Origin: Asterochloris sp. CNOR1
Lineage: Eukaryota > Chlorophyta > Trebouxiophyceae > Trebouxiales > Trebouxiaceae
Assembly: GCA_963969365.1 (NCBI GenBank)
Contig: OZ017752.1
Span: forward strand, 2,046,001-2,110,000
Length of the DNA stretch: 64,000 nucleotides
Reading direction: 5' to 3'
Positions 20,579 to 40,300 of this stretch are shown here, piece by piece. The position numbers and the translations under genes were made by a program. Each line of letters opens with the position of its first letter. Within the stretch, counting starts at the first letter, position 1. The notes below the pieces were generated by a model. It ran no database searches, had not been told where the DNA came from, and was given only the letters and a program-made list of their open reading frames with translations.

Positions 20579-23500
20579 TCACGTCGGGCTCCTCGCATAA
20601 CCACACGACATGTCTCCAAAACTATAGACCGCAGCGTGGGCTGCAACATGTGCACTTGAGGTGGTCTCCAGCAGCCCTGCAAAAGCGCCACTCACAACTT
20701 TTTGGGGCACTCCGCCTGGGGGCAGCGTGTTCTGGCGCACATGCATCAGTGGCACAGCCTGCTCGCTGCTGGCCTCCTGCTGGCGGTTGGCCTTGAGCAC
20801 CAGGCGCTTGATCTCTGCCCGCTCCTGCTCCTCAGCCTCAGTCTTGGCCCGCAGGTTGACGGCCATGGCCGAGGAGGCAGGGAGCTGCAGGGCGGCAGCA
20901 AGGGCAGGCTCAAACAGCGTGTTGGGTTTTGCTGGATCAATATGTTGCTGCTGCAGCAGATGCTGGTCAATGCCGGGGCGGGGAATCAGACCTGCTGCAG
21001 CAGACCATCAAAATCGGTGCCGTTGTCTGCCATGCAGTTCTTTCCACAAGGCTTTGAATTGTGCAGCCAGGCACAGTCATGGAACAATGCAGCGCCCTGC
21101 AGGGGGAACATGCAGCAGCCCACCTGCACTGCCTTGGTTTTGTCCTCCCGCCCGCCCCGCCTCAGCATGACCCTGAAGGCAACAGCCTCCTCAGGCTCCA
21201 CCTGCTGCTGCTGCCCGCCAATCTGCCTGAATGGGCCTGCCCCAGCGTGCCTTTGCATGAAGACAGGGACCCCTGTCAGGCCCACGCCTGCACGACAGGT
21301 TGCCCCTGTGAGCAGTGGGCCAACTGCACCATCAGCAAAGCACTTTGCCGTCAGGCTCAGGGCATCGGCATGGCACTGTGCTGTCAGGCTGAGGACATCC
21401 TAAGCGCTGTTCACTAACATTGCAGTGCTCAGCCACATCACAGACCATACACTGTCCACTACCAGGGTCAGGCTAGCACTGCCAGACAGGCGCCAGACAC
21501 ATGCAAAACTGCAGCAGCAAGGTGGCTGCCGCAATCAAGGCGCTCGAGGGTGGCAAGATAACATACCGGCTGCTGCAGCGCTGCGGGGTGCTGAGTCTCC
21601 CACCAGTGCAGCCAGCTCGCGCTCAAAGTCCTCATCCACCTCAGCCTCCTGCAGGCAGCCAGGAGTTCAAGCTCAGAAGAGGACACTGGCAGGCACGGCC
21701 GTACATGTGCCAGGGTTCAGCGTGGTGCAAACACACAGCAGGCTGGCTGTAGTGCCTGTAAGACTGGCACAGGCGAGTCACACCCGTTGAGCGCCAGCGA
21801 GCACAGCGCTGGCATTAGTGCGCCCCAGGACAGCTGCATTGCCCTGTTCAGTGTGGTCTGCTGGCTATGAAGGATCCACCCCACTCAACAAATTTGCAGC
21901 TGCAGGCAGTCAGTCTGCCCGAGCTCCCCGATGTTGGCAGGCTCTGCGAGGCTTGGGACCGCTTATGCAGCCTGCCACAGAGCTCTGCAGCTGGCACAGC
22001 GGGCAGACCACCGCAAGCTGCTCACCTTGACAGGCTCCAGGACGTGCACCGTGTCATCGTCCTCCTGGTCCCCCAGGCTGGAGGCGTCCTGACCTTCCAC
22101 CTCATCCTGATCCACCTCATCCTCTGCTGCAGCAACAACAGCACCAGGTGTGAGCAGAGTAACATGCCTGCTGCATGAGCACCTGAAACAACATGTCTAT
22201 GTCCCCCTGCTGCAGCGATGGGTACATGGTGGCTGCCTCGGTGCACCAGACCCCTCATACCAGCGTGGGTGCAAGGTGGACACCCTAGCAGCAAGATGCA
22301 TATGCGAAGTTGCAACAATGATCGGTTGCCGCCCCCTGGCTGCCTGGCCGCTGCGCTTGCTGATGCCACCGTCGTCTCTGACCCTCTGGGGACTTGGCAG
22401 TGTGTTCCGCAGAACCCAATCACAGGCCACAGTGCCCTCCACCTTCCTGGCCAGCCCCCTCGCTGCTGGCATCCTGGCTGGTGCGCTCCTCATCCTGTTC
22501 CTCCTCAATGGCCCCTAGGGCGAAACCTGCACTGCATGAGCTTGTGTGGGCAGACATGTACCAGAATGCCCAGATGCTGTGAGGCAGGCTGTGCTGTGAG
22601 GCAGGCTGCAGCAATGTTTCTGCTGGCTATGCGCCTCGCCATGCCCAGAGGCCAGGTACAGCAAAAGGTGCCTTGCTTTGCCAGCCAAGACAGCACCAGA
22701 CCAGAGTGCCTTGCAGCTCCTGCAGGGAGGCTGAACAAGGTCCAGAATGTGGGAGACCCGCCTGCTGCCTGCGCCTTTGCCTCAGCGGCCTCCAGGGCGG
22801 CCACAGCCTGCGCTGCCTCATCAAAGCTTTCACAGCGCTTGATTTTCGGCTGCAGGCGTTCAAGCAGGTCCTGCAGGTACACAAGGAGAACAGTGAATAA
22901 GATCTGGGTTCCGCCCATTTGGCTTGAGGTTCACTGGCTGCAATGGGCTGCACTGTCTAGCGGCCATCACACCAGGGACAGGATGCTTGGTTGAGCAACT
23001 CTCACCCCAGCTCATGGACAACCCAGGGAAGGCAGCAGGCCGAGACTCAGTGCCACTGGCCTGCAAAGGCTGCCTGCAATTTACACTTCGTGTCCAGGGA
23101 GAGTGTCGGCCAGCCCAGCAGGTAATCTCGCAAGTAGACCAAAAAGGCATCTCCACAGACAAGCACCAAGCCAAAATGTGCTGCCTCGCCGGCCTTGCCT
23201 GTTGGTCGTGCCCTGCGTGCAGGGTCAGAACCAGCTTGCCCATTATGTAGCGCTGCAGGTGAGCGCAAAAGCAGCTCATAAGCTCCAGAGACAAGCACCC
23301 AACTTGCCTGCAGGTCATACTCCATGTCTAGGGGCAGCGCGGGCTTGCCCAGCACATAGCGCTGCAGGAAGGCCAGGTAGCGCTCCAGGCGCTTCCTGGC
23401 CTGCCCCTTGGCAAAGAAGTGACCGCAAGTGTCTAACAGGGTGCACGCCAGGCGCACGCGGAAATAGCTATCCGGCGGGTCCAGGCGCTCTGCCTCTGCG

Positions 23501-26500
23501 GGGTCGCTGTGCCCAAAGGAGATGAGCAGGTACAGTGTCTCAAAGATGACCCTGCAAGCAGCTTAGACATTGTCAGCATCTCAGACATGACATCATTTTG
23601 AGGGTTTCTGCCGCCTGCCTGCAAGTGCGCCATGGGGTAGCTGAGGGGTGTCTGTAGCACAGAGCTGTTGTGCCAGATCTGGCTGTGCCAGCCATTGGCA
23701 GCATCCACACTTGCCTTCAGCAAGTACATACTGGTACACAGTATCGCCTCATCAACACCGCCAGGCAGCCAGCATATTCTTACAGCAGGCAAGCTGGTTC
23801 CTGGAAGCACAGAAGCCCAAAGCCCCACTCACACGCTGCCCCTTGAATCACTTTGTTGACAGCATGCTGCCGGGGAGGCAAAACTTGTGCATCTTCCCCA
23901 GCCAATGCACAGCTGCTGCCACGGGTGCAGGCAGGCCTCAAAGTCCTTACGGCCTCAAGTCTTGCTGCACACTCTTTTAAGCCAACCAGGCGATTGGATT
24001 TGTGCTGCAACGGGTGCAGACAGGCCTCAGGCTCCCCATAACTAGCCCCCTATGGCCTCAGACCCTGCTGCCTGCTCACTTGGAGTCGACCAGGCGGAAG
24101 TTGTACATCTCCCCCAGCAATCGCATGTGGCCAACGCGGCGCTGGTAGGTCCCTGACTCCGGCACCTCCAGCCCATAGCGCACCTGCTCAGAAGCATCTG
24201 ACAGCAGTGGCAGAGAGAGGCATGCAGATGCCCCAGCAGTGTGTGCCAACTCTGCATATGCAGGCCACAGGAGCCGATGGCAGCTCCAATTGTCTGGGCC
24301 ACAGGAGAGTGGCAGATCTCCAGCGCCTGACGGCAGCACAACAAGCCAGCACACATGTTTGTGATCCTCTGACAGGCTGAACAGCATGGCCAAGTTTTGC
24401 GTAGGGGTCTCATGGCTCAAAATGGCACTTGAGATGGCCAAGTTTGAGCTTGAAGCTGCACAGGAGCAAGACTCACCTCCTCAAGCAGGGCATCCACGAC
24501 TGCCACGCCCAGCGAGGGGTGGTACCGATTCAAATTGGCAGCCAGGGAGGCCACAAGGGGGATGTGGCTGAAGCGTCCCTTGCTGGCCTTGAGCAGCACA
24601 CGCACCAGGTAGGGCTCACTGCTTGCCCAGGGCAGGCGCCGCAGCTTCTTGAGCACCTGCGTTGATGTGGGTAATGAGAGTCTTGATGGGCGGTATCTAG
24701 GCGTAGCTCCTGCCAGCCTTATAGGCAGGTAACAGGCCAAACATATTCTAAAGGAATCAGTCTGTGAACATGAATTCAGAGCATGCTCTGAATACAGGCA
24801 CCAGGGACACACTGTCCAACCACCGCATGGGCACATGGTGGCGCAGAAACAGCAACCACCAGGCATCCCTCTCTGATGGCTCAGCAGGTAGACCCATGCA
24901 GGCTTTACTTGGCTTTATGGAATCTAGCAGGCACACGGAAGAGGCAGGGTGCCGTTCGTGAACCTGTTCAGTAGATCTGCACCCTGCTGAGCAGCTGCGG
25001 CACCAGGTGGCGTCTAAGTTTGGAAGAAGATACGCTGAAGATTAGCAGGGAGCTCACATGCTTGATCTGCTCCTTGCTGAGCTGCTGCAGCACCAGGTGG
25101 CGCATCCACTCCTGCTCCGCGCTGCGCCTCTTGCGGCGAACGGCCTGCTGCTTCTCTGGGCGCTGACACTGCATGAAGGCAATCTCCGCCATCATGCTCT
25201 GCCGTGCGTCCAGGGTGCGCTTTTCCCTGAGCTTCATCAAAGTCTGCATGGTCATGAGGTTGGCATAGTGAGGGTACAGGAGCCAGACTGCATGAAGGCA
25301 GATATCAAGAATGTGCCCTGCAACACTTCCAGGCTGCGCGCGTCCATCAGCAACACCATCGTCAGCAGGGAGGAGGTGTGTAGCCAGTCAATGTTGTTGG
25401 ACCAGGCTGATAACGTTCAAGCTCAACGACACTCTAAAGTTGCGCATTTGCGTCAGGCGGCTGAGCTGCAGCTTTACAGGTTGCACAGTCTACGTTTAAG
25501 TCTCAGTGCAGCCTGTGCTCCACAAAGCAAGAGGCTTGCACACACACTGCCATGGCTATTCAAGAAAGCGCTAGACATGCTTGCAGGGAGCTGGCTGGAG
25601 TGGGAATGCTGCAGCGCATGCTGACAGGCGGCCTCATTCAGGCCTGCCAGAATTCCCATTCCGGCCAGCTCCCAACAGGTAATTCAGAGGTGATTTCTCC
25701 TGTGGAGAGGCAACCCTCCTTCCTTGGACAGTTAGCCTCATGCAGGCCTGCCCGGACAGTCCGAACCAGCCCCCGCCCACCTGTGCCATCTTAGGCAGCT
25801 GTACAAAAGGCGATGAAGGTCAGGTTGCAACTGGATGGCACCAGATGGAAAGAGAAGAGGTGACACCACCAGCCAAGCTGGGCGGTCTTACACCCTAGAC
25901 TGGACATGGCCCACCCTCACCTGTGCCATGTTGCTCATGCGCTCATGCGTCTCTGGCAGCAGGAACAGGAAGCGCCCAGCGGTCTCGATCATGGTGCAGG
26001 CCACATCGATGTTGTGGTGCACAAATTCGTCCAGCACCTTCTGCAGGGGCACCAGGAAAGACGTGCTTACCGGTCTGCTTCAGCATGTGGGGCAGCCATG
26101 CCCTCAGCATACAACAGGCATAGCACAGCACTCACAGCACAGGGGCTGTGAGACATCGTGGTGAACGCCTCTGATGGCCTTGGGCAGGCATCAGGGGCTG
26201 CAGGCATTGCACAGAGAGACATCAGCAAACTAACAACACACCCCTCAGCACCCAGGAGGGCCAGACCGGGCGCACCTTTAGCAGCGTGAAGAACTTGCCA
26301 AAGGGCAGCACCCTGAACTTGACCAGCTCAGCGAGGAAGCGTGCATTGCGCAGACGCGCCTCCAGGGCCCTCTGGGGGTGAGTCACATCCCTCTGGGTCC
26401 CCTGCAGGCCATGAGGTTGCATGTAAGTGCGAGCTTGCCTGGCATTCTTGCAGATCAGATTGCAGTGGCCAGCAGGACTCAGTGCCACCAGCAAAACCCA

Positions 26501-29500
26501 TCAGAGGATGTTGCGGTGCACACCATTTGAAGAGGACATACAGGTGACAAAATTTGGTCATACGTTCTCAGCAGGTCTGGTGGTTGGCAGCTCTTTCATC
26601 TGGCGGGGGAGCCCTGCTTTGCATACGCCGTCTGCATGGTGAAGTTCTGGCACTGGCTGCCTTGAGCACGTCCTGCAGGCAATGCCGCCCGCCTGCACCC
26701 TCAGCGCTGCCCGCTGTGGCAGCTGGCAATGGGACAGACAGGAAACCCACCCTGAGGTGCATGAAATCAGCCTTCTGAGCCTCTGCCACCGCCTCCCCAA
26801 TGTCAGGAAACACCTGATTAAGCGTGGCGGTGACGCGGCAGTAGAAGGGCAGCATCTGGGGGTTGCCATGCTGTGTGTCCAGCAGGGCACGCACCTGCAG
26901 CACGAGGCAGAGCCTCTTCATCTTTGTCGACATAGCACCAATTCTGTCATGGCCTCTATTGAGGCTGCTGATGCTGCACGACCGCCTCCATGACAGCAAA
27001 AGGTGGAAAAGGCAGGGCCTCAGAGGAGCAGCAGCCTGACGCGAAAGAGGCCTGAGCTCAGCTAGGGTGCAGCATCCAGTCTGCTGCAGCTGTGGCTTGC
27101 AACAGCAACTACAATTCCCAGCACTTTCAAGGTGGCTCATAGTAAGTTAGCCAGGACAGAGGAGGCAAAAAACCCCTGCCAGCCTGGTGCATGCCTTCAA
27201 GCTGCATGGTTCCACCTCACCATGCGCTTCCTGGCAGCCTTGTTGTTGGCGTAGCAGAAGGCGACAGCGACAGCATCACACTGATCCTTGCTGACGCACT
27301 GCTGCAGCTGCTCAACAACAGCATCCATGGCTGCCCGTGCCTCAGCGTTGGCTGTGCCGGGGGCAATGGACTCAGCCTCAGCAGCAGCCTGCGCATCCTC
27401 GTCCCCCTCAGTCGCGCCGCCGTCTGGGGTGAGCAGGTCAGCGGCAGCAGCAGCAGCCTCACCATCTACAGGGTGCAGAGACAGACCTTCAGTCGGCCTG
27501 ACCTCTGAAGTAGCTTCCATTGTGTTGGGTGCAATTCTGCACTTGTGAGCGTCAGGACAAGGCTGACACACAGGCAGACCCTGAAGACCAGCATGCTGGA
27601 CAGCAGCAGGTGGTGGCTGGCTAGCAGGCTCCCAAAAAGATTGTTCTGTCAGGCTCACCAGGAAGGTCAGCACCATCTCCGGCATCAGGCTGGTCACTGC
27701 TGTGCCCCTGGCTGCTGCTGGGCTGGTCCCCTTGTGCTGTGTCTCCCAGCAGGGCACTTGGAATGGTGGCCCGCAGGTCTGGGAGGGTCTCATAGAAGAC
27801 GCGAGTCTGTTCGTCTTCAAAGGGCCCTGTGTAGGCCTCGTGGGAGTCCTGCAATGCAGCAACAGGGTAGCTGCAGGTACTGAACGGGATCTGCCACAGA
27901 GCAACTGACGCAAGGCCATCTGAAAGAGCAGTGCAGGGACAGGGTAACTGCAAGTGCTCTGCAGCACTTGCCACAGCGCAGCTGACGGACAGCCAACCAA
28001 AGCAGCAGTGCATCGACAGGATGACTGCAAGGTGCTGTGCAGGACTTGCTGCTGAGCAGCTGACGCCAAGGCATTGAGAGCCACGGCAAATTCTTTCAGT
28101 AATTGTGCAGTGCAAGCTTATATGTGTGTCTGCCATGCTCAGAGAGGGCCCAGGCTGAGGTTCACATCAGGCTGATCAGAGCATCTCTCCAGCGGCAATG
28201 CTCCCATTTGGCAATGCTCCCAAGGGGATGGTGATGCTGCCTACTCTGACAGGATCCAGTGCACACTGCAGCCCAGGACTATACTGCATAAGTCACCAAC
28301 AGGAGCTTGACTGACTTTCAGGCTCAGAGCAGGTAGTCCTGCCAATGGGGTTGGTGACTTTCCCAATATGAGGGTGATGGTGTCTATTTGTGACGCATAC
28401 AGATGCCTGAGGGCCACCTGTGTCTGTGCTCATGGCTGGCTTGCACTGCATGCTGCCGATTGATAGCTTGGCAGAATGATGCCTGCTGCTCACCTTGCCC
28501 AAAAACACGCCGACCACGCTGCCCTCGCCAGCTTTGCCGCTGGCACTTGGCTCTGGCAGATTGGGCATCTGCCTGTCCAGTAGCTCAGCCAATGGCACGA
28601 TGCTGCGCTGCAGCGTGTCAAACAGCTTACGCTTCTGCTCGTACGCGCTTGCCATGTTCTCAGGAAGGTCTCCCCTGCAGACATGTGTGTTCTGGGTGTC
28701 GGCAACAAATTCGTCTGCTGCAGCATGTCATCCAGCTCCTGCATATGCTCATAGGCGCTGGTCATGTTCTCTGGGAGGTCCTGCTTGTGCAGCTGACTTG
28801 CATGGTCTGCTTGTGACAGCAAGCTGACTTCTACTTGACGAGAGTGGTCCTGACATCAGTGGCTGTGACAGCATGCTGCTGTTGGTTCCACGACGTGACT
28901 GCCTGAGCAGGAAGGCAATGTGGGTCATGCAGAACATCCGATGGCCAGACATGGGACAAGCTGCAACAGGCTGATACCAAGAGAGAAGACTTGCATGTGA
29001 CGCTCACCAGAGTGGCCGAACAGTGACATACCTGCTGTTCAGGATGCCCAGGTTGCGTTGGTCCTTGGCCACAACAGCAGTGTGGTCTTGTTCCAGCACC
29101 CTGAAGGCCTTATCGCAGAGCCTGCCTAGGGCCTGGCGCAGCTCCCGTTGAGGCCCCTCTGGCAGCACATAGCGCTGGCGCACTTCTGCATCATGGGCTG
29201 CCTTGGCCTGCTGGTAGTCTGCCAGGGCCTGCTTGGCCTCAGGAGAGTCCTGCAGGAACCACCTGACCTTCATTGGGCGCGGCAGGACGGTCAAAGCGTG
29301 TTTTGCAGAGCTGTTGGTGTGTGCTTTGCTTTTGGGGCAAAGGTACAGCTGCAGTGCCGCTCAAGCAAACAGCCAGGCTGAGGCTGCTCTTTCTGATGCA
29401 CTGCCAGGTCCCCTGCTCGGCATATGTCACCAGCCCAGCAACAACGTCTACCTGGGCTGCTTTTCCCTGCTTTTCCTTCAGCGCGGGACAAGCACATGTG

Positions 29501-31949
29501 CTGGAGCTGCAATGACATGCTAGCAGCCGCACTCAGCAAACCCCTCCCCTTGCCCCAGACTTTCAGAGAGCCCATGGCGACGTGCTGCACCGGCTTCCAC
29601 AGCCATGGCTGTGAGCCCCACCTGTGTGGCAGCCCGCTGCACCAGCGCTGCAGTGATATCTCTGCCAGCCAAGGCCCAGCTGCTCTTTCTGCACATTCAT
29701 GAGAGAGTGCCTTTGCACCACCTGTCAGGATCTACGGCATCATCTATGTGGCGTCCTGCTGCAGCAATGGTGCGGTGACATCAGCTCTTCCAAGCGGCCC
29801 TTCCAGAACGTGAGTAGCAAAGCCCTGCACCTCACCTGTGCAGCAGCCTGCTGCACCAGCGCTGCAGTGGCATCCTTGGCAGCCAGGCCCAGCAGCTCCT
29901 CCCGGCAGCCCTTGGCAAAGTGCCCCAGCAGCAGCAGGACCATCAGCGCCCGGTCCCGATCCCTGGCAAAGTCAGGATCGGCCAGGCTCTTGACAGCGGC
30001 CAGCAGGGCTGCATTGTCGCTGTACAGCCCCACCAGGCGCAGCTCCGCCAGCAGCTTGAACATGGAGCGCCGACGGATGGAGGTTGCCTTGTCGTCCTCT
30101 GCACAGCATCAAAGGTGGTGCTCAGTGTTAAGTTACAAGGGTGAGGAAAGCATCTGCATGGCATGTGTGAGATGCCCCTCTTCCAGGACTTTTCTCAAGC
30201 CAAGTGGCGATGGACATCTCTCTGGAGCTGTACCATAGAAGAGGAGTGCCGCTCAGCGCAAAGAAGAGACCTCATAGACGCCATTGCTCACCAGCCTGAG
30301 GTGTCAGGTTCACCGCGATGGCAGGCACCAACTCCTGAGAGAACTCCGCATAGCGCTGGTGCAGCGCCGAGCAGACCTGCACCAGATTTAGAGGACAGCG
30401 ATCTTGCGATTGAGGCTGTGGCACTGGTGGGCAAACAGCCCCTCTGCAGAGCAGCCCTTGAGGACAGTTGCAAACAGAGGTCCCCATCGCAAATGGCATT
30501 GATCAGATCTCATAGCATCCAATGAGTGCCAATCAGACCTGCACAGCTGCTGCCAAGTTGCCCATGTCCCAGGTGGTGCTAGCAGACCAGATTGTGCCAG
30601 CAAGCGTGCATGGCAGCCCAAGCATGGCATTGCAGTTGTCTAATGGCCCTGGGTGCGTGCCGACCTGCAAAGCTGCTCCCCAGACGGCAATTGTCACGCC
30701 TCCGTACCCTAGATGATTACTCGCGCACCTGCACAGCTGCCGCCACGTCCTTGCTCTTCAGGCTGGCGTCTGCCACAGCAGCCACTGCCTCTGTGACGTA
30801 CTTGCTCTGGTTAGTGCGAGCTATGTCCTGCAGCAGGGCCTCCCGGGTGTCCTCGCTAATCTGTCTTAGGCGCTTTATCAGGGCAGTGTTGCGCTTGACA
30901 CTGGAGTCCAGCTGGCGCAGCTCGGAGTCACCTGCAGGGCAGGTTCAGAGCAGTGTTGCTCCCAGACACAGGCGCTTGACCAGGGGCGTGAGCACTGAGC
31001 CCCAGCCACCGCCAGAGCATAGCAAATTGTTTGCAGGTAGGGTCACAGAGCTGCTTATGCAGACGAGCTGCAAGCAAATATCAGTCAGTTCTGCACTTCA
31101 AGCTGGAGCATAGCTGGCGCACACAGAATGCCTGCAGGGCGGGGTCAGAGCAGTGATGCAATGCTAGACAGACGCGAGGTGGTATGACTCAGGTGCCCCA
31201 GCCAGCTCGCATGATCTGCAGAGCAGGATGAGAGCTGTTCCCATAGATTGATGCAGCCGCTGGATCATGCCATGTTGCGCCTGCTGCGGTCAGCTCAGCA
31301 TCATGTGCAGGGCAGCAGGATCAGAAGTGCCTTGGTAGCCTTGATCGGAAGTCGTTCACGAGTCCAGCAGACGCAGCTTGGCACTGCCACCCAGAAAGGG
31401 GACATGCCGCTGGGGCTGGGCAGCTCATTGTTGCGTGCAGGGTGCCCCTTTGAGGGCAGACAAGGCCAAGGCTATGACTTGCCCATGCTGATGCTTGCTA
31501 TTGCTCATGGAGCAGGACAGAAGCCAAGATGGGCAACATGGGGAGTGGCACATTGGCGCCTGGTAACAGGGCCTGCTAGCCCATGCCGACAGACTGCTGA
31601 CCCCGCCATGCCCTTTAAGTAGGCCTGGCTTGAGGCCTGGGTCTGCAATCACCCCATCCATCTAGGAGGGGGGCATGTAGGCCTCTGTGAGACAGCAGCT
31701 TGGCCCCGTGCAACAAGTTCCTTGCCTGGTCGCTTGGGGGCCAGATTTGCCTCTCGCGTCTCCCGCCGCAGCTGCAGGATTGCAGCGCTCGCCCTAAGCT
31801 GCTTGACTGCATCCTGCAGGCATCAAATGTAAATTATGGAAAATTGTAAGTAACGCTGAGGAGCAGCAACAGCCTGACATGGTGTTCACCTGTAAAGTGC
31901 CACTCGCAAGCTCCACCTCAGCAGACTCCTTGGGCTCGGCAGCCTGCAT
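20579..31949 (-). CDS. UPF2: UPF2, nonsense-mediated mRNA decay factor with three MIF4G domains
   Basis: Scaffold that bridges UPF3/exon-junction complexes to UPF1 in nonsense-mediated decay. Exons run from the ATG at 31949 (MQAAEPKESAEVELASGT): 31949-31890, 31813-31726, 30931-30729, 30376-30292, 30098-29836, 29249-29032, 28674-28494, 27848-27659, 27465-27221, 26894-26751, 26401-26276, 26040-25921, 25243-25058, 24656-24477, 24183-24080, 23551-23308, then 22870 onward. All phases up to 23308 agree. Landmarks are LDSSVKRNTALIKRLRQ (MIF4G-1), FEDEQTRVFYETLPDLR, NNKAARKRMVRALLDTQHG (MIF4G-2 start), FVHHNIDVACTMIETAGRFL, FRVRLACTLLDTCGHFF (MIF4G-3) and RLQPKIKRCESFDEA. Next come acidic stretches (EEEQDEERTS, DEVDQDEVEGQD) and the UPF1-binding-type tail EVDEDFERELAAL, with AEIKRLVLKANRQ near 20800. 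The C-terminal exons below 22770 are only roughly placed. The stop at 20579 is the end of the open frame. Two introns (donors at 31725 and 23307) use GC. Confidence 0.9.
23075..23378 (-). repeat. Three-copy exon echo in UPF2 (3' edge of the MIF4G-3 exon)
   Basis: Minus strand: the real exon edge (about 23375-23308) encodes FLQRYVLGKPALPLDMEYDL. A second copy at about 23265-23198 reads HLQRYIMGKLVLTLHAGHDQ. A third at about 23152-23075 reads YLRDYLLGWPTLSLDTKCKL. The intron segments between them also match (GGTGCTTGTCTCTGGAGC versus GGTGCTTGTCTGTGGAGA), so whole units of about 115 bp were duplicated in tandem, including the splice donor. Copy 3 is in frame with the real exon without an intervening stop; copy 2 is not. 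Confidence 0.85.
23876..24110 (-). repeat. Exon echo in UPF2 (edge of the exon ending RLVDSK)
   Basis: On the plus strand, TGCTGCAACGGGTGCAGACA at 24003 begins a segment running through GGCCTCAG to CCAGGCGG at 24096. It is copied at 23914-23992, beginning TGCTGCCACGGGTGCAGGCA and ending AACCAGGCGA. A third fragment at about 23878-23912 repeats the AGGCGGAAGTTGTACATCTC exon tract as AGGCAAAACTTGTGCATCTT. Spacing is about 95 bp. Confidence 0.8.
24973..25104 (-). repeat. Exon echo in UPF2 (edge of the exon ending LSKEQIKH)
   Basis: The real exon edge at 25060-25104 (plus strand GATCTGCTCCTTGCTGAGCT…) is copied 88 bp away at 24973-25016 (GATCTGCACCCTGCTGAGCA…). The translations are RHLVLQQLSKEQI and RHLVPQLLSRVQI. 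The copy is in frame with the exon across the intron. Confidence 0.8.
25586..25673. repeat. Near-perfect inverted repeat (hairpin) inside a UPF2 intron
   Basis: The left arm is 25586-25607 (GGGAGCTGGCTGGAGTGGGA then AT) and the right arm is 25652-25673 (ATTCCCATTCCGGCCAGCTC then CC). Twenty of 22 positions pair. The loop of about 44 nt contains further short GC-rich complementarity. It could be a small foldback element or hairpin RNA precursor; nothing in the sequence tells which. Confidence 0.7.
27849..28078. repeat. Three-copy degenerate tandem repeat (~77 bp unit) in a UPF2 intron
   Basis: Units begin at about 27849, 27926 and 28000. Shared blocks are GCA(G)TGCAG..ACAGGGTA(G/A)CTGCA, (C)TTGCCACAG(C)GCA(G/A)CTGACG, and GC(C)AA.GC. 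The repeats abut the acceptor of the exon starting at 27848, and each unit carries a CTGCAG-like acceptor, so this is the acceptor-side form of the exon-echo pattern. Confidence 0.75.
28605..28792 (-). repeat. Exon echo in UPF2 (5' part of the exon starting at 28674)
   Basis: Minus strand: the real exon has DLPENMASAYEQKRKLFDTL. About 111 bp upstream, in the preceding intron (28716-28792), a copy encodes DLPENMTSAYEHMQELDDML. The copy lacks the downstream half of the exon. It may be a decaying duplicate or an alternative exon. Confidence 0.82.
29616..29908 (-). repeat. Three-copy exon echo in UPF2 (edge of the exon ending at 29836)
   Basis: Plus-strand block CTGCACCAGCGCTGCAGTGG (about 29850, real exon edge) recurs as CTGCACCAGCGCTGCAGTGA near 29637, with long flanking similarity (CACCTGTG…AGCC…GCCAGGCCCAG). 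A weaker middle copy (CTGCAGCAATGGTGCGGTGA) is near 29758. All three keep the CACCTGT donor context. Confidence 0.82.
30901..31178 (-). repeat. Exon echo in UPF2 (5' edge and acceptor of the exon starting at 30931)
   Basis: Plus strand 30901-30976 (CTGGAGTCCAGCTGGCGCAG … CCTGCAGGGCAGGTTCAGAG) matches 31102-31178 (CTGGAGCATAGCTGGCGCAC … CCTGCAGGGCGGGGTCAGAG) at roughly 80%. The copy includes the CTGCAG acceptor. A third, fainter GCAGGGCAGCAGGATCAGA block lies near 31305. Confidence 0.82.
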
Positions 31950-32279
31950 AGATTTAGCCTGTCAGGCTGGTGGTCTGTCTGGTGTGCAGCCTGCTGCACA
32001 CAAACCTTGAGAGCAGCTGCAGACACCATCAGTCCTCAGCCTTGTCAACACCAAGTGTGAGTCCTGGTCTGAAACGCTGGAGTAGCCGAAGCTTCATCTG
32101 GCATGCTGACCAGACAGGCGGGACGAGGCTCGCTAAGCCTATGCTTGATGTGATGAACCAGTCAAGTTCACCAGTCAAGGACAGCCAGGAGGGCACTGTG
32201 GAACCCTGATTGAGCTGCAGCTTCATTACACGATTGCAATTCTCTGACGTGAGATCAGCTCAGATCTGTAGCAGCCATT
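31950..32279. promoter_or_regulatory. Candidate bidirectional promoter, UPF2 / superoxide dismutase
   Basis: There are 330 bp between divergent start codons. I recognised no TATA box or named element. The segment next to the SOD start (CACGATTGCAATTCTCTGACG) is relatively AT-rich. Confidence 0.35.
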
Positions 32280-34661
32280 ATGGCGTTCACCCTGCCGAAG
32301 CTGCCTTACGAGTACGACTCGCTGGAGCCCTCCATCGATGCCCAGACCATGCAGATCCACTACTCCAAGCACCACAACGTGAGCTGGACCCTTGATCTCC
32401 CCAAAAGACATTGCTTGCATGTGACCCTGCCAAGCTGTGATGTGTGCATGCATTGGCATGTTATAATCTACATGTGCGCTGCGGCCACCTGGTCCAGCAC
32501 CCTGGTGCTTCTCTGCTTGATTTACAGGTGTGCTGTGGAGACCAGGACCTCCTTTCTGATGCACTGGATCTGGCTACTCTGCAGACCTATGTGACCAACG
32601 CAAACAACATCATCGCCAAATATGACGATTTGAAGCAGCTGGACTTGGTAGCGCTCAATCATGCAGTTGGCACTGACAAGCTGCCAAAGGATGCGGCCAC
32701 TGGTCTCAGGTGCCCTTTCTGCTGAAAACTGTGAATATGATGCTGTTGGGTCCCTGTTGGCGCATGCCTTTCAGCTCATCTTGTCCCTCAGGAAGCATGG
32801 AAAATGGAGCCATATTGAGGCTGAACTCGGGCTGCATTAGCTGGCAGGCACCAAGCCATGCACCTATGAGTTTGCCTCCCTGCTCCTGCTGCAGGAACAA
32901 TCTTGGGGGCCACTTCAACCACAGCTTGTTCTGGAAGGTGAACAAGGCTTGCCTTTCTATATGCGGCATAACCTTTGCCTAAAGGAGGGGCCTCAACGAC
33001 GCATGTCACCACTGCCCTGCTTTCAACTTTACAGTCGCGGCACCTCGCTGTGTTCCGCACCGTCCTCCTGGCAGTGTGCAGTGTGCTTTCAGCTCACAGC
33101 ATGTTGTCAGTTGACTGCACACATCTGACCCCTCCTCCATTGTGGCAGACCAGTCACAATAAGGCTGTGCCTGCAGGTGATGACCAACCCCAGCAATAGC
33201 AACGGCCCCTCTTCAGAGCTCAAGGAGGCTATCGACTCTGCCTTCGGGTCCATGGATGAGTTCAAGAGCAAGTTCAATGCAGCTGCAGCGGGGCGCTTTG
33301 GCTCGGGGTGGGCCTGGCTTGTGGCGGACAGCGGTGAGCTGCATGTTTGGGTTGACTGGCAATCTGGGCCGGTGGGATTGCTCTGATCTGCAATGTGGCT
33401 TCGCAGAGCCACAGCAGATTGTTCCAGTTGTGATGGGCCCGGCTGGTGGCAGATGGCAGTGAGTCCATGTTGGCAAAGCCAAGACATCTTAAGGCAGCCT
33501 GTGTCTCGTCTCCAGACTGCCGCTGCTAGCTGTGCCGCTGTCTTGGATTGATTTCAGCAGGGCCTGCTGGGCGGACGAATTGGTCGTGTAGGGCTGCTGG
33601 ACATTAAGCCTGTGCAACACAGCGGCAACAGGGTAATTTGATTCGGGGTGGGCCTAAGCGGTGGCAAGTGGCTTCATATTCGACGAACCCCTGCTGTTTG
33701 TGGGGCTGCGGTCTTTGGTGTACATTGCTGCAGCAGAGTCAGGCAGCTCGAGGTTGTCCTGCCGCTGCAACAGTGGCCACCCTACTGCTAGTCAGGGCTG
33801 CTGTGAGGCCAAGGAAGTGGGGCCATGCTGCCAGCAATGTCACCCTGCCTGCCTGCACTCATTGACCCTGTTTGGCTCTGTTCTGGCCTCCATATGGACT
33901 GCTGCGCGTGCAGGCAAGCTGGCAGTGACCAGCACACCCAACCAGGACAACCCCCTGATGAAGAACGTGGTGGAACAGGCTGGCATCCCCGTGCTGGGCT
34001 TGGACGTCTGGGAGCATGCGTGAGTGCCCTTCCTGCCTTTGAAAGTCCTCACTGCTGCTGCCCACAGCGCTCCTGGCGGTGCACATGAAGGACTAGCTAA
34101 GGCTGGACCTGCCTGGTGCTTCCCTGCACTGAGGCCTTTTGACACTTTGCAACGCCGTCAGTATTAAGTCTGTTCTCTGTTCTGCCACAGCACTGACCCC
34201 TTCTTACAGCTGTGCTTTGAGGCACCGTCAGCAGTGCGCTGTGCCCATGCTGTGTGCTCGGCACTGCCTTAAGCGCTGATGCCTCCCCATGCTGAGTGCA
34301 TGCGGCACTGAGGTGGCTTGATAATGTGCCCTGCCATTGCCTTCCTGTGTGCTTGGCCTGGTTGCCAGCACTGAGCACAGTCACTGCTGCATGCAGGTAC
34401 TACCTCAAGTACCAGAACAAGCGGCCCGAATATGTGGCCGCCTTCTGGAATGTGGTGGGTTTTAAGCTGCCCAGCTCTGCTTAGGCATCCTGTTTTGTCG
34501 TCCATCCTCTGCTGAAGGGGTGCAACTGAGATGCGCTGGCATGGCTGCCATCAGCTCGTGCCATGGTCACAAATGACTGTGTGCTGCTGCAGGTGAATTG
34601 GGAGCAGGTGAACAGCAACTACCAGGCAGCGAAGGGGGGCAAGGTCCCTGAAGTCCTGTAG
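32280..34661 (+). CDS. Superoxide dismutase, Fe/Mn family, Mn-type
   Basis: Converts superoxide to oxygen and hydrogen peroxide. Seven exons close the frame exactly: 32280-32378, 32585-32709, 32895-32937, 33177-33333, 33914-34019, 34397-34454, 34593-34661, giving 218 residues, close to the family's usual length. Predicted metal ligands are H27 ([12 protein letters not shown]), H84 ([10 protein letters not shown]), D172 and H176 (DVWEHAYY). Q152 in the [11 protein letters not shown] motif is the glutamine position that favours Mn over Fe enzymes. The motifs [28 protein letters not shown] and WNVVNWEQV resemble bacterial SodA more than the typical mitochondrial enzyme. The protein starts directly with [13 protein letters not shown], where bacterial SodA starts, so there is no obvious organellar transit peptide; cytosolic or other location is open. 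It starts head-to-head with UPF2. Confidence 0.95.
33309..33679 (+). repeat. Exon echo in the SOD gene (edge of exon 4)
   Basis: The exon-4 edge and donor at 33309-33345 (GGGCCTGGCTTGTGGCGGAC…GGTGAGCTGCATG) is echoed at 33434-33471 (GGGCCCGGCTGGTGGCAGAT…AGTGAGTCCATG). It appears again, more diverged, at 33640-33679 (ATTCGGGGTGGGCCTAAGCG…). Copy 2 keeps a GTGAGT donor-like site. Confidence 0.7.
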
Positions 34662-34707
34662 CAATCAGATCGTGCCAGACTGTGACCGGACTATACAAGT
34701 ATGATCT

Positions 34708-34712
34708 TGTAA
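34708..34712 (+). terminator. Possible poly(A) signal TGTAA for the SOD gene
   Basis: TGTAA, the usual chlorophyte polyadenylation signal, lies 47 bp after the SOD stop codon (CTTGTAACAGG). One pentamer can occur by chance. Confidence 0.35.
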
Positions 34713-35378
34713 CAGGTGGAGGTTATGCGCCACCACGCGGATCCTACTGAGAGCAGCAGACATCATAGTTGGCCTTTGCTTTGCTGCGTGACCAACAATG
34801 CAATGTGTGCTTGGGCTCTGGTGCGCTCAAGCTGCAGCAGAGCGCATGAGTTCCTGTGCTTGAATTTCTATCCAATTTCCAACAGTTGGCCATCCTGGTG
34901 TCGTGTCCAGGCTATCAGGGAGCATCACCTAGAACATGAAAGGTCCAACCCAAGGCTGCATGAGAATCTCAGTTGTGTCGCCTGCCACAGTTCAGCGTCA
35001 GCCAACAGCAGTCACGTGTGTCTTTAGGTGATGCTAATTTCTGCTGCTGCTGCACATACTCACAGCTGTCACTTGGGTACTGCCCTACAGAAAACCAAAG
35101 CTTGCCATTAGGCCTCCAGGCAGTAGCATCAGGACCCTTTGAAGCTCTGTTGCTCTGCAGATTGGGATTCTGGCCCAAATTTCGCTTCAATGCCAGCAAG
35201 CTTCTGGAAAGATTAGATGGCCATTAAGGCTGAATTCAACAGACCATGATGGCTACAGAGGAACTTTCTTCAAGGAAGTAGATGCTTGCCAAAGCCCCAG
35301 AAGGGGTGAGTTGCTTGATGATGTCTGAAGGTCAAGTTGCCAAGCTCCCTCGGAGTCGCCAACAGCCATTGGTGGATG
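34713..35378. other. Convergent spacer between SOD and SDR genes
   Basis: About 670 bp, more AT-rich than the genes around it. The open frame at 34973-35227 on the plus strand (84 codons) has no recognisable motif and no splice support, so I treat it as chance. Nothing else seen. Confidence 0.5.
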
Positions 35379-37214
35379 TCAGGGATTGACTTTGCTTTCC
35401 CAAGGCTTGTCATCATGGTCCAAAAATATGCCCATGATGGAGTATCCACCGTCTATCGCCAGGGTCTGGCCAGTGATGTATGATGCAGCCTTGGAGCATA
35501 GGAAGGCGACTGCTCCTGCAGCAGCAGACCCAGACTGCATGAGCCTGCAGGCCTTCCAACTATACACTTGTCTCAGCAGCTGGAGGCATGAGGAGCCACC
35601 AGATATCTCTTCAGGGTCAGAGACCCGCTTCTGGGGCACCCTCAGCCTCATTTTGCTCATGATGTCCTCATTGTTCAGAATGCCCTCCACCAGCGGCGTG
35701 CGCACATAGCCTGGCGCAACGTCATTCTGGCAGCAGCACAGGAACAATTGGTGAGCCACTTCATAGCAGCTCGAAGTGTCCACAGCAGTGCCAGTCAGTC
35801 ACCACACGAATGCTGTCTCGCGCCCACTCCACAGACAGGTTGCGAGCCAGCTGTTTGATGGCAGCTGCAGCAGGGACCTGTCAGCTGAGTAGCAGGCAGG
35901 CATCCAGGTTGCATGGGAAAGGGAAGAGAAGCGAAAGAGTACCCTTTGTCATGGCATATGGAGCTCCTGCGTGACAACAGCCAGCGATGAGCTGCATGGA
36001 GCAGAAGCTGTACACACACAAGCGCAACACAGCTGCTTACCTGAGAACATGGCTGTTGGGCCACCGCCCACAGAGGAGATGTACACAACAGAGCCGCTTC
36101 CGGAGGCTTTTAGCAGGGGATATGACAGCTGCAGCATGGCAGTGAGCGCATTGGTAAGCTTGTGTGCTGGGTCCTAGTAAAACACACCGCACATTTGCTG
36201 GGTTCTGGCCCATTACAATCGAAGGCTAGCACATTGTGCACCTGTGACAGTCTGAAGCAGGCGTCCAGATTAATGCCCATTACTGTCCTGTATTCCTCCT
36301 CACTGTACTCCACAGCTTTCTTGCGGATGTTGATCCCAGCATTGCAGACTGCAGGGCACAAAGCAGCATCAGAGGTGGCGAAGGCAGCAGCACCCTCTGG
36401 GCCATCCTTACCAAGGATGTCAAGCTTTGAGCCCAGCGTAGCCTCTGCCTACAGCACATGGGCGAGCTTCAGCAAAGACTCAATGCTGCCCAGACCTGGC
36501 TGCAGGTCTTCATCTGGCCGAGCGGTCCAAGGGCCTGATGTGCAGCCCTTCACAAGAGCAGTTGCAGGTGCCTTTTCTGTAGCTGCTCAGGGGAAGTGTG
36601 GCTTGCCTGCTTCATCAGTGTCTGGCAACCTTCAGCAGTGGCCAGGTCTGCTGCACACCCCTGCACATGAGCTGAAGTGTCAGGGTGGCTGCAGAAAGCT
36701 CAGACAAAACTTCCAGATCCCCACCTGCACATTGAGGCCCTGTTGCTGCCATGCCTCTGCTGCAGCTCTGACATCAGCTTCACTCCGGGAGCAGAAGAAG
36801 ACCTGCAGAGCATGCACCAATAGCAATCTAGCAGGCAGCAAAGTCTGTATGTGATCTGGCTGAGCTTTCTGGGCTAAATCTCAGCTGTTAGGGTTTACCT
36901 CAGCACCAAGAGAAGCCAGCTCAAGGACACATGCAGCACCAATGCCTTTCGTGCCACCTGCGCAAGCCAGGGCTCTTTGAGGGCGAGCCGGACCGATCAG
37001 TGCCATGCCACACATGACAGGTCAAACCTGTGACCACAGCCTTCTTTCCAGCAAGTCCAAACCGCTTCTCTGCAAAAGCAGCAGACATGGGGCTCGTTTC
37101 TGGCCCCTTGAGCGTGTGGTCAACGGTTGCTAGCTGCAAATAGGTCATAAATGCCATATGGAAAATAGCCTGTGATCTGCCAGCGTCCCTGGATTGCCAC
37201 AAGGAATCTTGCAT
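35379..37214 (-). CDS. Short-chain dehydrogenase/reductase, tropinone-reductase-like
   Basis: NAD(P)-dependent oxidoreductase of the classical SDR family, closest in pattern to plant tropinone-reductase homologues; the true substrate is unknown. Ten exons close the frame: 37214-37028, 36957-36899, 36802-36725, 36660-36607, 36448-36412, 36348-36242, 36128-36041, 35864-35803, 35726-35600, 35515-35379 (311 residues). Motifs are the cofactor loop [54 protein letters not shown] and [20 protein letters not shown]. The catalytic Tyr-x-x-x-Lys normally sits just before 'AAIxQLARNL'. Here exon 7 ends …TAMFS and exon 8 begins AIKQLARNL, so the usual YAASK segment is missing or lies in a tiny undetected exon. 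The exon at 36660-36607 requires a GC donor. ATG at 37088 ([10 protein letters not shown]) is a more family-like start than 37214. Confidence 0.88.
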
Positions 37215-37320
37215 CCCATCTCTAATCTTCTCGTTTGATGCTTCTTCCGGTATCGCACTTGCCTTGCTGCCTAAACGACATGCAGGGCCTTGAATCTCCT
37301 TGATTCACGCCAAGCACTGA
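37215..37320. promoter_or_regulatory. Candidate bidirectional promoter, SDR / kinase
   Basis: There are only 106 bp between the divergent ATGs (232 bp if the SDR starts at 37088). No motif identified. Confidence 0.35.
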
Positions 37321-40300
37321 ATGGCAGCAAGGGCTGCCCAGACTAAGAAGCAGGAGCAGCGGATGCAGGATGGCAGCAGATCACAGTCTCCCCTGCAGCC
37401 AGCCTTGCGCGCGGGAAGCACCGCCAGCATGGCGTCACGGGGCGGCTCTCTCAGCAAGACCCTTGCAACAAGGTGAGGGTCCGAGGTGCCTGATGAATGT
37501 ATGCTGTGACTGGTGTGATTGAGAAGCATGCAGTTGCAGACGGAGACAGGCACAGCACTCACCAGCCTCATGGAGTGCTCAATTGCTGGTGGTCAGCTAC
37601 CTGCCCGGCAAGCTTGAGAAGGCTTTATGCGTTGCAGCGGCTGGCCATGCACACATGCCAGGGCACCTGGAATGGTTTTGTGCCCGTCCCACACTGCAGG
37701 CTGGACAGTTAGCCAGGCGCACAGCCCTCAGCGGTCCCTGGCAGTCACAGTCATGCCCTGCCCCACGGGCGGTCCAACACTGGCCAGAGCAGCCCTGTGC
37801 AGGCACAGGCATGCCTGGCCTGCCCTGAAGGCGGGCCTTTCCTGGGCACCGCCTTCCACGCTCTGCAGATCCAATTGTCGATCAACAGCTGACCTGCAGG
37901 CGGCGTGGTGCGAGAGCACCAGACAGCCCTTTGTATGTCCTGCGCTGCCCTGCAGCCTGCAAGGGTGCCCCTTATGCAGTTGCTGGCTTGTCTTGTCTAG
38001 CCCACGAAGCCAACGCCAAGTGGCATTCAGGCCACTAGGAGAGACGACACATAAAGTGGTGGCCTCACACTGGGCTTCATTTACTGTCCTGCCCCCCCCG
38101 CTCGATAAGCAACTGAACTTTCCACTGTCCAGCAGGCTGGAGGAGAGCGAGATGCGGCTGGAGACATCCCACCAGGTGAACGCGCATCTGAATGCTGAAG
38201 TGGAGACCCTGACCAAGCAGCTGGACAAGTTGCGGGAGCAGAATGAGTCCTACCAGCGCCACATGCACGACCTCGCTGCCATGTTGGCGCAGCAGCGGCG
38301 CCACCACGCTTCTGGGACCGACCAGGTGACTGCGAGGCCTGGGTGTGGGCTGGGAGGGCTGCAGGAGGTGCCTTGGGGCAGTCTCAGCAGCAACGCCATC
38401 ATGCATCAGGTACCTGCAAGTGCCATGGGATGAGGTGTGGAGCTGCACTCGGGATGGGGCAAGGTGGGACCGTGCAGGCGAGGCTGTGCAACCGTGTCAG
38501 GTGCTGCATGTGCGCAGCAGCGCCTCGCATATGACCTGGTGACCCTGCCGGCCCAGTGCGGCACCTTCATGCTTCAGCGGCTGACCAGGGCTTGCGAGGC
38601 CCCGCTATGTGATAGGCTGGGGAAGGTGTCTTTGAAGGGGCCAGCATGACTTTGGGGCTTGTTTCCGAATGTGGCAGGCGCTGAGGGGTGTTCACCAGGG
38701 CCACATGCCTGACCTGGCCATCCTGCTCCTGCAGAAGTGCCATCACGTCTTGGGGACAGCTTGGGTCAGGGCCTGCTACATGCAGAGGATGGGTGGGAGG
38801 CCACTGGGGCTCTGGCATGGCTCGCAGCACTGTCAAAAGCCAACTGTTCTGTGCAGATGAGCTGTGACAGCCACAACACCTTGTGCACCTCTGCGCAGCT
38901 GCATGATATCTCACAGCAAGGCAGCAGCACAGCATTGTAGGACATCGAGAACAAGCCTTGCATAGGTCCCTGCACTGCTTTGCAACCGTCAGTGCAGAGG
39001 ACAGTCGTGCTCCTGGGCCTTGCTAGTCCTGGTGGGTATTGGTCGCAACAGCCGACAGCTCAGACTTGTTATTTGCCTGCAGGTGCCAGCCGCTGAGATT
39101 GACCAGCTGGCTTCACCCAGCCAGCTGCCAGATTCAACTGCCCAAGGTGACTTCAAGGGTGTCCTTGCTGTCTGTGCTCCAATCAAACCCCAGTGATATG
39201 CCTGACCTGTGCCAGAAACCTGCAGCATCCAGCCTGGAGAGGGCACCCACCTCATCCCTGCACAAACAGCCCCTCTGAGGCTGCACTCCCCTCCTGCAGT
39301 TCCCAACAGCAGGGCGCCCACCAACGGCGCCAGCTTGAGCTGGGCCAGTGACGTGCGGTGGGACGAGCTGCGCAAGCTGGGGAGGGCGGCATGCTGGCTG
39401 GTAGAACCTGATGAGGCGCGTTGTCCTGGTTCAAGTGTCTAGTGTGAAGAGGGCTGCGGTGCCTGTTGTCCACAGCAGCAGCAATCCAAGGCCTGTTGTC
39501 TCACCTGGCAGTCTGAAGCAGCAAGGACACTTCTACTAGCTTCAGAGCTGAAGGTGGGGCTATTTCGGGTTCTGAGAGATTATCATCATGCATGAGGATC
39601 CCAAGCTCTGCTCTTCTGCCTGCAGGTGAAGGTGGGGATGGCTCTGGGAGAGGGCACCTTTGGGACAACCTACCACGGCGTGTGGCGGGGGGGCGATGTG
39701 GCAGTCAAGTGCGTGCGCATCAGCAAGCAGGACGAGGCCGACAGCTTCTTGCGGGAGGTGCAGGTCCTGGCCTGCCTGCGCCACCCCAACATCATGCCCT
39801 TCTATGGTGAGACCTGCTTGCTGGTGCAGTTGGTGTTGACAGGTGAACATGTGGACGGAGCAGATCCTGCCCTGCCTGCAGCACCATGCCCCATTAAGAA
39901 CATGCTGCAGGCAGTGACTGCTCTTCAGCTGCTGGCTCCACAGGCTCCAGCATGGGTGTCTCTTCATACCTGCTGGGTGTTTCAGCCTTGGACCCCAAGC
40001 ATCCCAACCACTGTTCTTTGCTTGCCCAAGCAACTTGTTTTGCTCTGCACTTATTGCGCTTCATTGCTTCGCACGTATCGCAATCCCTGCCTACTTGCCT
40101 CGAAACAGTGTAGCCACCCAGCCTCCAGGCCCTGCAGCAACGTAAGCAAATCCCATGCCAGCCCTGCTGGTCCTGAAGGCATCTGTGCTGTAAGGTGGCT
40201 GTGCTGTGCATCCCGCTGTCTGGCAGGACTGGGCCTGGCTCAGCCAGCGGGGGCGCTGCCTGAGGTCAGACTCCCTGCTTTGCTGTGCAGGTGCATGCCT

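Follow-up and report, generated by a model that had tools for sequence, protein, structure and literature searches.

Short head-to-tail duplications of about 100 bp and diverged copies of exon edges in introns of the green alga Asterochloris sp. CNOR1

In the green alga Asterochloris sp. CNOR1 (assembly GCA_963969365.1), the edge of an exon, together with its splice site, can recur as a diverged copy in the same orientation within the neighbouring intron. We studied these copies, here called echoes, in a 64-kb stretch of contig OZ017752.1 (positions 2,046,001-2,110,000; hereafter the window, whose own numbering is used below) and in an independent sample of the genome, which totals 56.4 Mb in 21 contigs. 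The sample consists of 10 kb from position 500001 of each of 18 chromosomes (L002-L019, 180 kb in all), and "genome-wide" in what follows refers to this spaced sample together with the window. The underlying repeats appear to be short head-to-tail duplications whose unit is bounded at 60-150 bp, with a mode near 100 bp. We consider it likely that tandem duplications of this size struck genes at many positions, and that those crossing an exon edge left the echoes behind.

Genes were predicted from DNA only, by a gene finder that was self-trained on the window and the sampled sequences and admits GT donors only. It settled on a donor of CAG/GTGAG and an acceptor of CTGCAG/G, and returned 511 exons and 482 introns with a median intron length of 256 bp. 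In the own-edge test, each exon edge, taken as at most 80 nt of exon and 40 nt of intron, was compared with the remainder of its own intron at a threshold score of 20, using the 363 of 464 introns that are at least 130 bp long (the 101 shorter ones were excluded). An own-edge copy was found in 50 of the 363 introns (13.8%; 13 of 113 in the window and 37 of 250 in the spaced sample), compared with 0.3% when random edges were used, and the excess climbs to about 20% of introns at lower scores. Donor and acceptor edges contribute equally (26 and 25, respectively). When introns were compared with their own flanking exons (344 introns, leaving out those flanked by an exon shorter than 30 bp), 32 scored at least 30. 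Random exons did so in 6 of 3,440 trials, and none of the 344 introns did so when set against its own exons in reverse complement. The first-pass annotation of this DNA had attributed the echoes to tandem duplication across splice junctions, had taken them for a genome-wide habit and had named chance as the cause if introns resembled their own exons no more than random ones. The own-edge copies support the first of these points and the echoes of the spaced sample, with duplicated segments in most of its stretches, the second, while TGCAG-rich composition is ruled out as the cause because the random-exon and reverse-complement scores stay far lower.

The spacing of the copies delimits the unit. 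In a blastn self-comparison (cut-off at least 38 bits), 37 of the 69 direct high-scoring segment pairs (HSPs) lie at offsets of 60-149 bp (19 at 60-99 and 18 at 100-149), followed by 1 at 150-199, 15 at 200-299, 7 at 300-499, 4 at 500-999, 5 at 1-2 kb and none beyond 2 kb; only 2 HSPs are inverted, and dinucleotide-shuffled DNA, the control for this comparison, yielded no direct and one inverted HSP within loci. An ungapped scan of the window and sample over all offsets of 10-519 bp found 66 segments at 60-149 bp (62 when merged), flanked by troughs of 2 segments at 40-59 bp and 3 at 150-189 bp, with additional groups of 14 short-unit segments at 10-39 bp and 13 segments at 190-219 bp; across 200 control offsets spanning 3-8 kb there were none. 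The spaced sample alone contributes 53 segments at 60-149 bp, 2 at 40-59 and 3 at 150-189, and segments at 60-149 bp are present in 14 of the 18 spaced stretches as well as in the window. A second control, 150 kb of E. coli (a weak one, E. coli being without introns), gave 6 segments over all offsets of 10-519 bp, 1 of them at 60-149 bp. Simulated duplications were detected at most about 1.8-fold more poorly at 50 bp than at 100 bp, and no more poorly at 160-180 bp; because they remain detectable there, the trough below 60 bp is more than a detection limit. Minisatellite or slippage arrays, with short units and homogeneous copies, were considered and rejected, as short-offset segments are few next to the 66 at 60-149 bp and identities are mostly 70-90%.

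The arrangement of the copies is tandem. Among the best-preserved pairs the copies abut at L008 6918-7038/7037-7157 (unit 119 bp, 88% identity), L005 5648-5735/5754-5849 (unit 106 bp) and L003 7127-7186/7192-7253 (unit 65 bp). In the aligned cases the unit runs from intron into exon or from exon into intron, and the copy lying off the predicted junction is intronic. Among pairs offset by 160-320 bp, 18 of 26 (14 of 22 by site) have a significant middle copy (p < 0.05), and because a third copy usually sits between the two, most of the longer offsets can be put down to arrays of the ~100-bp unit. All five stretches tested, of which four include an exon edge and the fifth is purely intronic, match one place in the 56.4 Mb, although such a match is no proof of rarity because the DNA search ignores very common words. 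Matches of at least 42 bits between sampled stretches number 12, and all have L002, L007 or L013 as their first member; these three stretches have long similarities to other sampled loci and contain dispersed repeats that are probably mobile. L007 additionally holds an inverted repeat (7057-10000) whose two arms, each 1,208 bp long, match perfectly; the second arm reaches the end of the stretch. Two other tandem repeats stand out in the sample: a young-looking array of three copies at L013 545-748 (unit 68 bp, 93-96% identity), which among offsets of 60-149 bp is the sole HSP family to exceed 90% identity across 50 bp or more, and a 404-bp tandem duplication at L012 6184-6987 (81%), well beyond the usual unit size, with predicted exonic and intronic sequence in each copy.

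At offsets below 600 bp there are 72 repeat pairs: 20 join an edge to an intron, 17 an exon to an intron and 19 an intron to an intron (both copies at least 80% intronic), 15 pair exons or edges with one another and the last lies in intergenic DNA. These classes, like the codon-position, offset-identity correlation and random-placement tests, omit two HSPs of the L013 545-748 array. Random placement expects 10.5 edge-intron pairs, so that the 20 observed represent a 1.9-fold excess (p 0.001), and 25.8 intron-intron pairs; the edge-intron excess can also arise if exon copies decay more slowly. The first-pass annotation had located the phenomenon at exon edges. Echoes do occur there, but the pattern is wider, with 19 of the 72 pairs intron-only, and because such duplications also occur the edge is not established as a special target.

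To compare the copies base by base, 68 pairs were realigned, two of which (window 27878 and L010 691) had both their copies collapse onto a single stretch; these were excluded from the substitution and identity-difference tests and kept in the pooled codon-position counts. The transition-to-transversion ratio between copies is 0.96 for exon-intron and 0.89 for intron-intron pairs, and 105 of 182 gaps are 1 bp long; with so ordinary a substitution spectrum, repeat-induced or adenine-specific mutation was rejected. Identity between exon copy and echo is flat over the three codon positions (0.80, 0.80 and 0.79), as expected if the echo is noncoding. GT or AG is retained in 22 of 35 edge-spanning echoes, close to what the overall identity of ~76% alone predicts, and hence there is no sign that the splice sites of echoes are maintained. 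The decoy splice sites foreseen by the first-pass annotation thus exist, but are kept no more often than identity would lead one to expect, and the data fit echoes that drift without visible constraint. Its further proposal that copies decay with distance is contradicted, both by the lack of correlation between offset and identity (rho -0.07, p 0.54, 72 pairs) and by a three-copy site at 29616-29890, where identity to the real exon edge is 82% for the far copy but 59% for the near one.

The genes in which the echoes were originally noticed illustrate these features. Pfam searches with pieces of the predicted proteins identified MIF4G domains of the UPF2 type (three stretches), an Fe/Mn SOD domain and kinase domains, and of the 29 introns of 130 bp or more that are predicted within 23075-38776, 7 contain an own-edge copy scoring at least 20 (23552-24079, 24657-25057, 25244-25780, 28675-29007, 29637-29835, 30932-31124 and 33334-33913). 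On the minus strand, the UPF2 exon at 28494-28674 (gene model, MIF4G and alignment) has its 5' edge, 28607-28670, echoed in the preceding intron at 28717-28780 (78%, offset 110), where the AG is lost at the aligned position and a different AG lies a few bases off. Also in UPF2, the exon end at 25064-25102 is echoed at 24974-25012 (90%, offset 90) with the donor GT kept. The three-copy site, with starts at 29616, 29738 and 29830, comprises the real exon end and donor at 29836-29898 (exon 29836-30098, from alignment and gene model), a middle copy at 29738-29798 (identity 59% with the real edge, 61% with the distal copy) and a distal echo at 29616-29685 (84% over 70 bp, offset 214). The real acceptor edge at 30876-30974, recognized by alignment, has an echo at 31079-31176 (74%, offset 203) that repeats the tail of the intron, the acceptor and the head of the exon. 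On the same strand, the intron at 25244-25780 echoes the acceptor edge of exon 25058-25243 (offset 117, 69%), the intron at 23552-24079 carries a donor-side echo (offset 214, 78% over 58 bp), and 27851-28072 holds an intron-only, decayed array of two to three copies with a period of ~77 bp, found at a single genomic place.

A further minus-strand copy at 23194-23259 (71%, offset 109) corresponds to the UPF2 exon end that, judging by UPF2 sequence, probably lies at 23303-23368. It is probably intronic behind a GC donor, and falls outside the seven introns listed above because the GT-only gene finder read through that donor. The same region (23254-23310) contains a probable GC-AG intron (CAG/GCAAG), the donor region of which is copied 109 bp off. 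The gene finder also took parts of at least two echoes for mini-exons (window 29622-29636 and L017 near 1884) and merged the SOD and kinase genes into one model. On the plus strand, the SOD exon end at 33267-33315 (Pfam domain and edge test) has an intronic copy at 33607-33655 (score 23, 73%, offset 340). The echoes reported earlier for UPF2 and SOD are therefore present, whereas that of the kinase gene is weak: in an upstream intron of its region (38326-38520, plus strand) a donor echo scores a sub-threshold 19.4, and a donor-side echo that does reach 20.0 (offset 100) lies beyond the original interval, in the plus-strand intron at 39807-40290. The putative SPAG17-like gene, likewise outside that interval, bears out the earlier description with echoes at offsets of 86, 99, 136 and 338 bp; its plus-strand exon end at 13259-13290 is copied at 13345-13376 (87.5%, offset 86). 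An exon end at 7195-7244 (plus strand) recurs at 7294-7343 (offset 99), and a minus-strand exon edge with its acceptor, 15229-15282, recurs at 15300-15354 (offset 71-72) with the AG kept. Elsewhere in the window, a long protein of low complexity in which WG(D/A)FD-like motifs recur is encoded with an exon-internal repeat at 51319-51392/51526-51599 (offset 207, 76%, a third copy lying in between), perhaps the same kind of duplication retained in coding sequence.

If short tandem duplications are the source of the echoes, their consequences would depend on where they fell. A duplication within an intron would merely lengthen it, while one crossing a donor or acceptor would create two junctions and, were the outer one used, the other copy and a piece of exon would become intron. 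Within exons, most duplications would change the protein and so be lost, and repeated events at one site would build arrays of three or more copies, accounting for most of the longer offsets. The events themselves may have begun with opposite-strand nicks ~60-150 nt apart, giving a staggered break whose overhangs would be filled in and whose ends would be joined, so that the intervening stretch is duplicated. In mammalian cells, fill-in by CST/Pol alpha-primase and non-homologous end joining yields small tandem duplications, most of which cover nearly the whole overhang, and the induced overhangs range down to 43 bp (PMC8355091). A Ku domain was found in the Asterochloris genome. The fill-in model leaves the scarcity of units below 60 bp unexplained.

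Several results weigh against this account, in addition to the limit on the single-place matches given above. The gene models probably over-call introns, which make up 61% of the DNA as against 7% intergenic. Exon-exon pairs number 5 where 7.5 are expected at random (p 0.22), a shortfall too small to demonstrate that duplications inside exons are lost. The histogram of intron lengths is suggestive, yet contains no significant 75-125-bp periodicity (p 0.08). The copies have diverged too far to place the junctions at which microhomology would show, and the search for Stn1 matched nowhere, controls included, and so carries no weight for or against CST. Young pairs are also too few: only 5 of 40 reach 88% identity where 14.2 are expected (p 0.005) without the L013 array, or 7 of 42 where 14.9 are expected (p 0.02) with it, which implies that the process slowed, came as a burst, or made copies that were imperfect at birth. 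Finally, exon-echo minus intron-intron identity over the same 22 pairs is -0.012 (standard error of the mean 0.019), while simulation gives +0.05 for an exon rate of 0.3 of neutral and +0.07 for a rate of 0.1; with the 20 nt nearest the splice sites removed the difference becomes +0.020 (95% interval -0.026 to 0.061) and the conflict is no longer clear. Between the options left by the shortage of young pairs, we prefer a duplication process that was stronger in the past to errors at birth. A bolder suggestion, tentative and in our view rather doubtful, is that duplication in this lineage is or was a process of its own kind, inherently gauged to ~60-150 nt, which supplied much of the intron length, perhaps in a burst or with errors at birth. 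Introns would then be decayed piles of ~100-bp tandem copies, both of intron sequence and of the adjoining exon edges.

Among the other explanations, chance similarity arising from TGCAG/GCAG-rich composition and a common splice consensus draws on the uniformity of the acceptors, which makes short edge-edge matches common enough for random edges to score at least 14 in 15% of introns. At a score of 20 this background has all but vanished relative to own edges, and together with the empty reverse-complement and distant-offset controls this refutes chance, to which we assign next to no probability. Equally scant credence goes to dispersed elements, either introners or transposons, inserted into introns: the genome does hold dispersed repeats (in L002, L007 and L013), but the copies carry exon sequence of the very gene in which they lie, and for the five single-place stretches, within a search that ignores very common words, such elements are refuted. 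A mutagenic form of duplication, in which copies are laden with errors at birth or mutated at once and most divergence sits in one of them, would account for the deficit of near-identical pairs and for an exon-echo identity no higher than that between intronic copies. The identity sign, however, weakens without the splice-proximal columns, the substitution types are ordinary, and a past burst accounts for the missing near-identical pairs as well, making this version highly improbable.

Alternatively, the introns themselves could be new and built of exon copies, through the tandem duplication of AGGT-bearing exon segments (Rogers/Hellsten), a possibility also raised by the first-pass annotation. 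The donor and acceptor blocks of the same intron are indeed alike (score at least 20) in 17 of 464 introns, compared with 0.01% of random pairs. But a single case among the 14 best listed is in register within 2 nt, the remaining shifts being 5-45 nt; in addition, intron-only echoes exist and echo-bearing introns are long, with a median of 450 bp (n=50) against 281 bp (n=313) for those without an echo. Intron gain is therefore not borne out and has very little likelihood in our view. Because intron ends rarely match in register, existing introns appear to have been lengthened rather than created, which suggests that they grew in steps of roughly 100 bp. The first-pass annotation had likewise seen the echoes behind the long introns, and the length association agrees with it, although long introns also offer more room for matches. 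It is also very unlikely that the echoes are functional alternative edges, left by tandem exon duplication and retained for mutually exclusive splicing. Some splice sites are well kept (the acceptor at L017 1866-1912, 91%, and the UPF2 donor at 24974-25012), but across the set they are retained only as identity predicts, there is no clear codon-position bias, and 18 of 51 echo offsets are divisible by three, near the one third expected.

Known systems resemble these duplications in part. Mutually exclusive exons are diverged exon copies that adjoin each other; the aligned echoes, in contrast, bear one exon edge rather than a whole exon with two splice sites, and nothing in them points to selection. 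In some algae, introner elements supply introns genome-wide as dispersed families, whereas each of the five stretches tested here matches its own locus only. According to Gao and Lynch (2009), internal gene duplication is reportedly ubiquitous, intron-containing segments included; the units described here differ in being sub-exon, near 100 bp, with one or both copies mostly intronic. Tandem duplication in genes and intron gain through it are already known (PMC3443670, PMC4974935, PMC2891723), and the duplication in potato RdRp is, like ours, tandem, within a gene and across an intron-exon boundary (PMC4974935). The potato RdRp (PMC4974935) and Drosophila (PMC2891723) cases concern new introns, unlike the 50 of 363 introns here, in which existing introns appear lengthened. 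The closest mechanistic likeness is to the CST/Pol alpha-primase products, which are head-to-tail, tens of bp long and need no repeat or homology, and for which the authors propose fill-in as the source of a mutational signature common in genomes (PMC8355091). Those products come from induced breaks in mouse and human cells (PMC8355091); the ones described here are old and decayed, have units of 60-149 bp and are known from sequence alone. Searches of the open-licence literature turned up no paper that describes exon-edge echoes as common in a genome or reports a limit to units of 60-149 bp. It is the bounded unit size that is new, tandem duplication within genes being already known.

Growth of introns is usually attributed to transposons and to many small insertions and deletions. 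Across the sampled genome of Asterochloris, one class of mutation with a narrow unit size adds to introns, and the bounded size is itself a clue to the mechanism. For annotation, echoes are decoy splice sites of known source and a hazard, being mistaken for mini-exons. Since events that cross an exon edge leave a readable copy of the exon, it becomes possible to measure how fast introns grew, when they did so and by units of what size.

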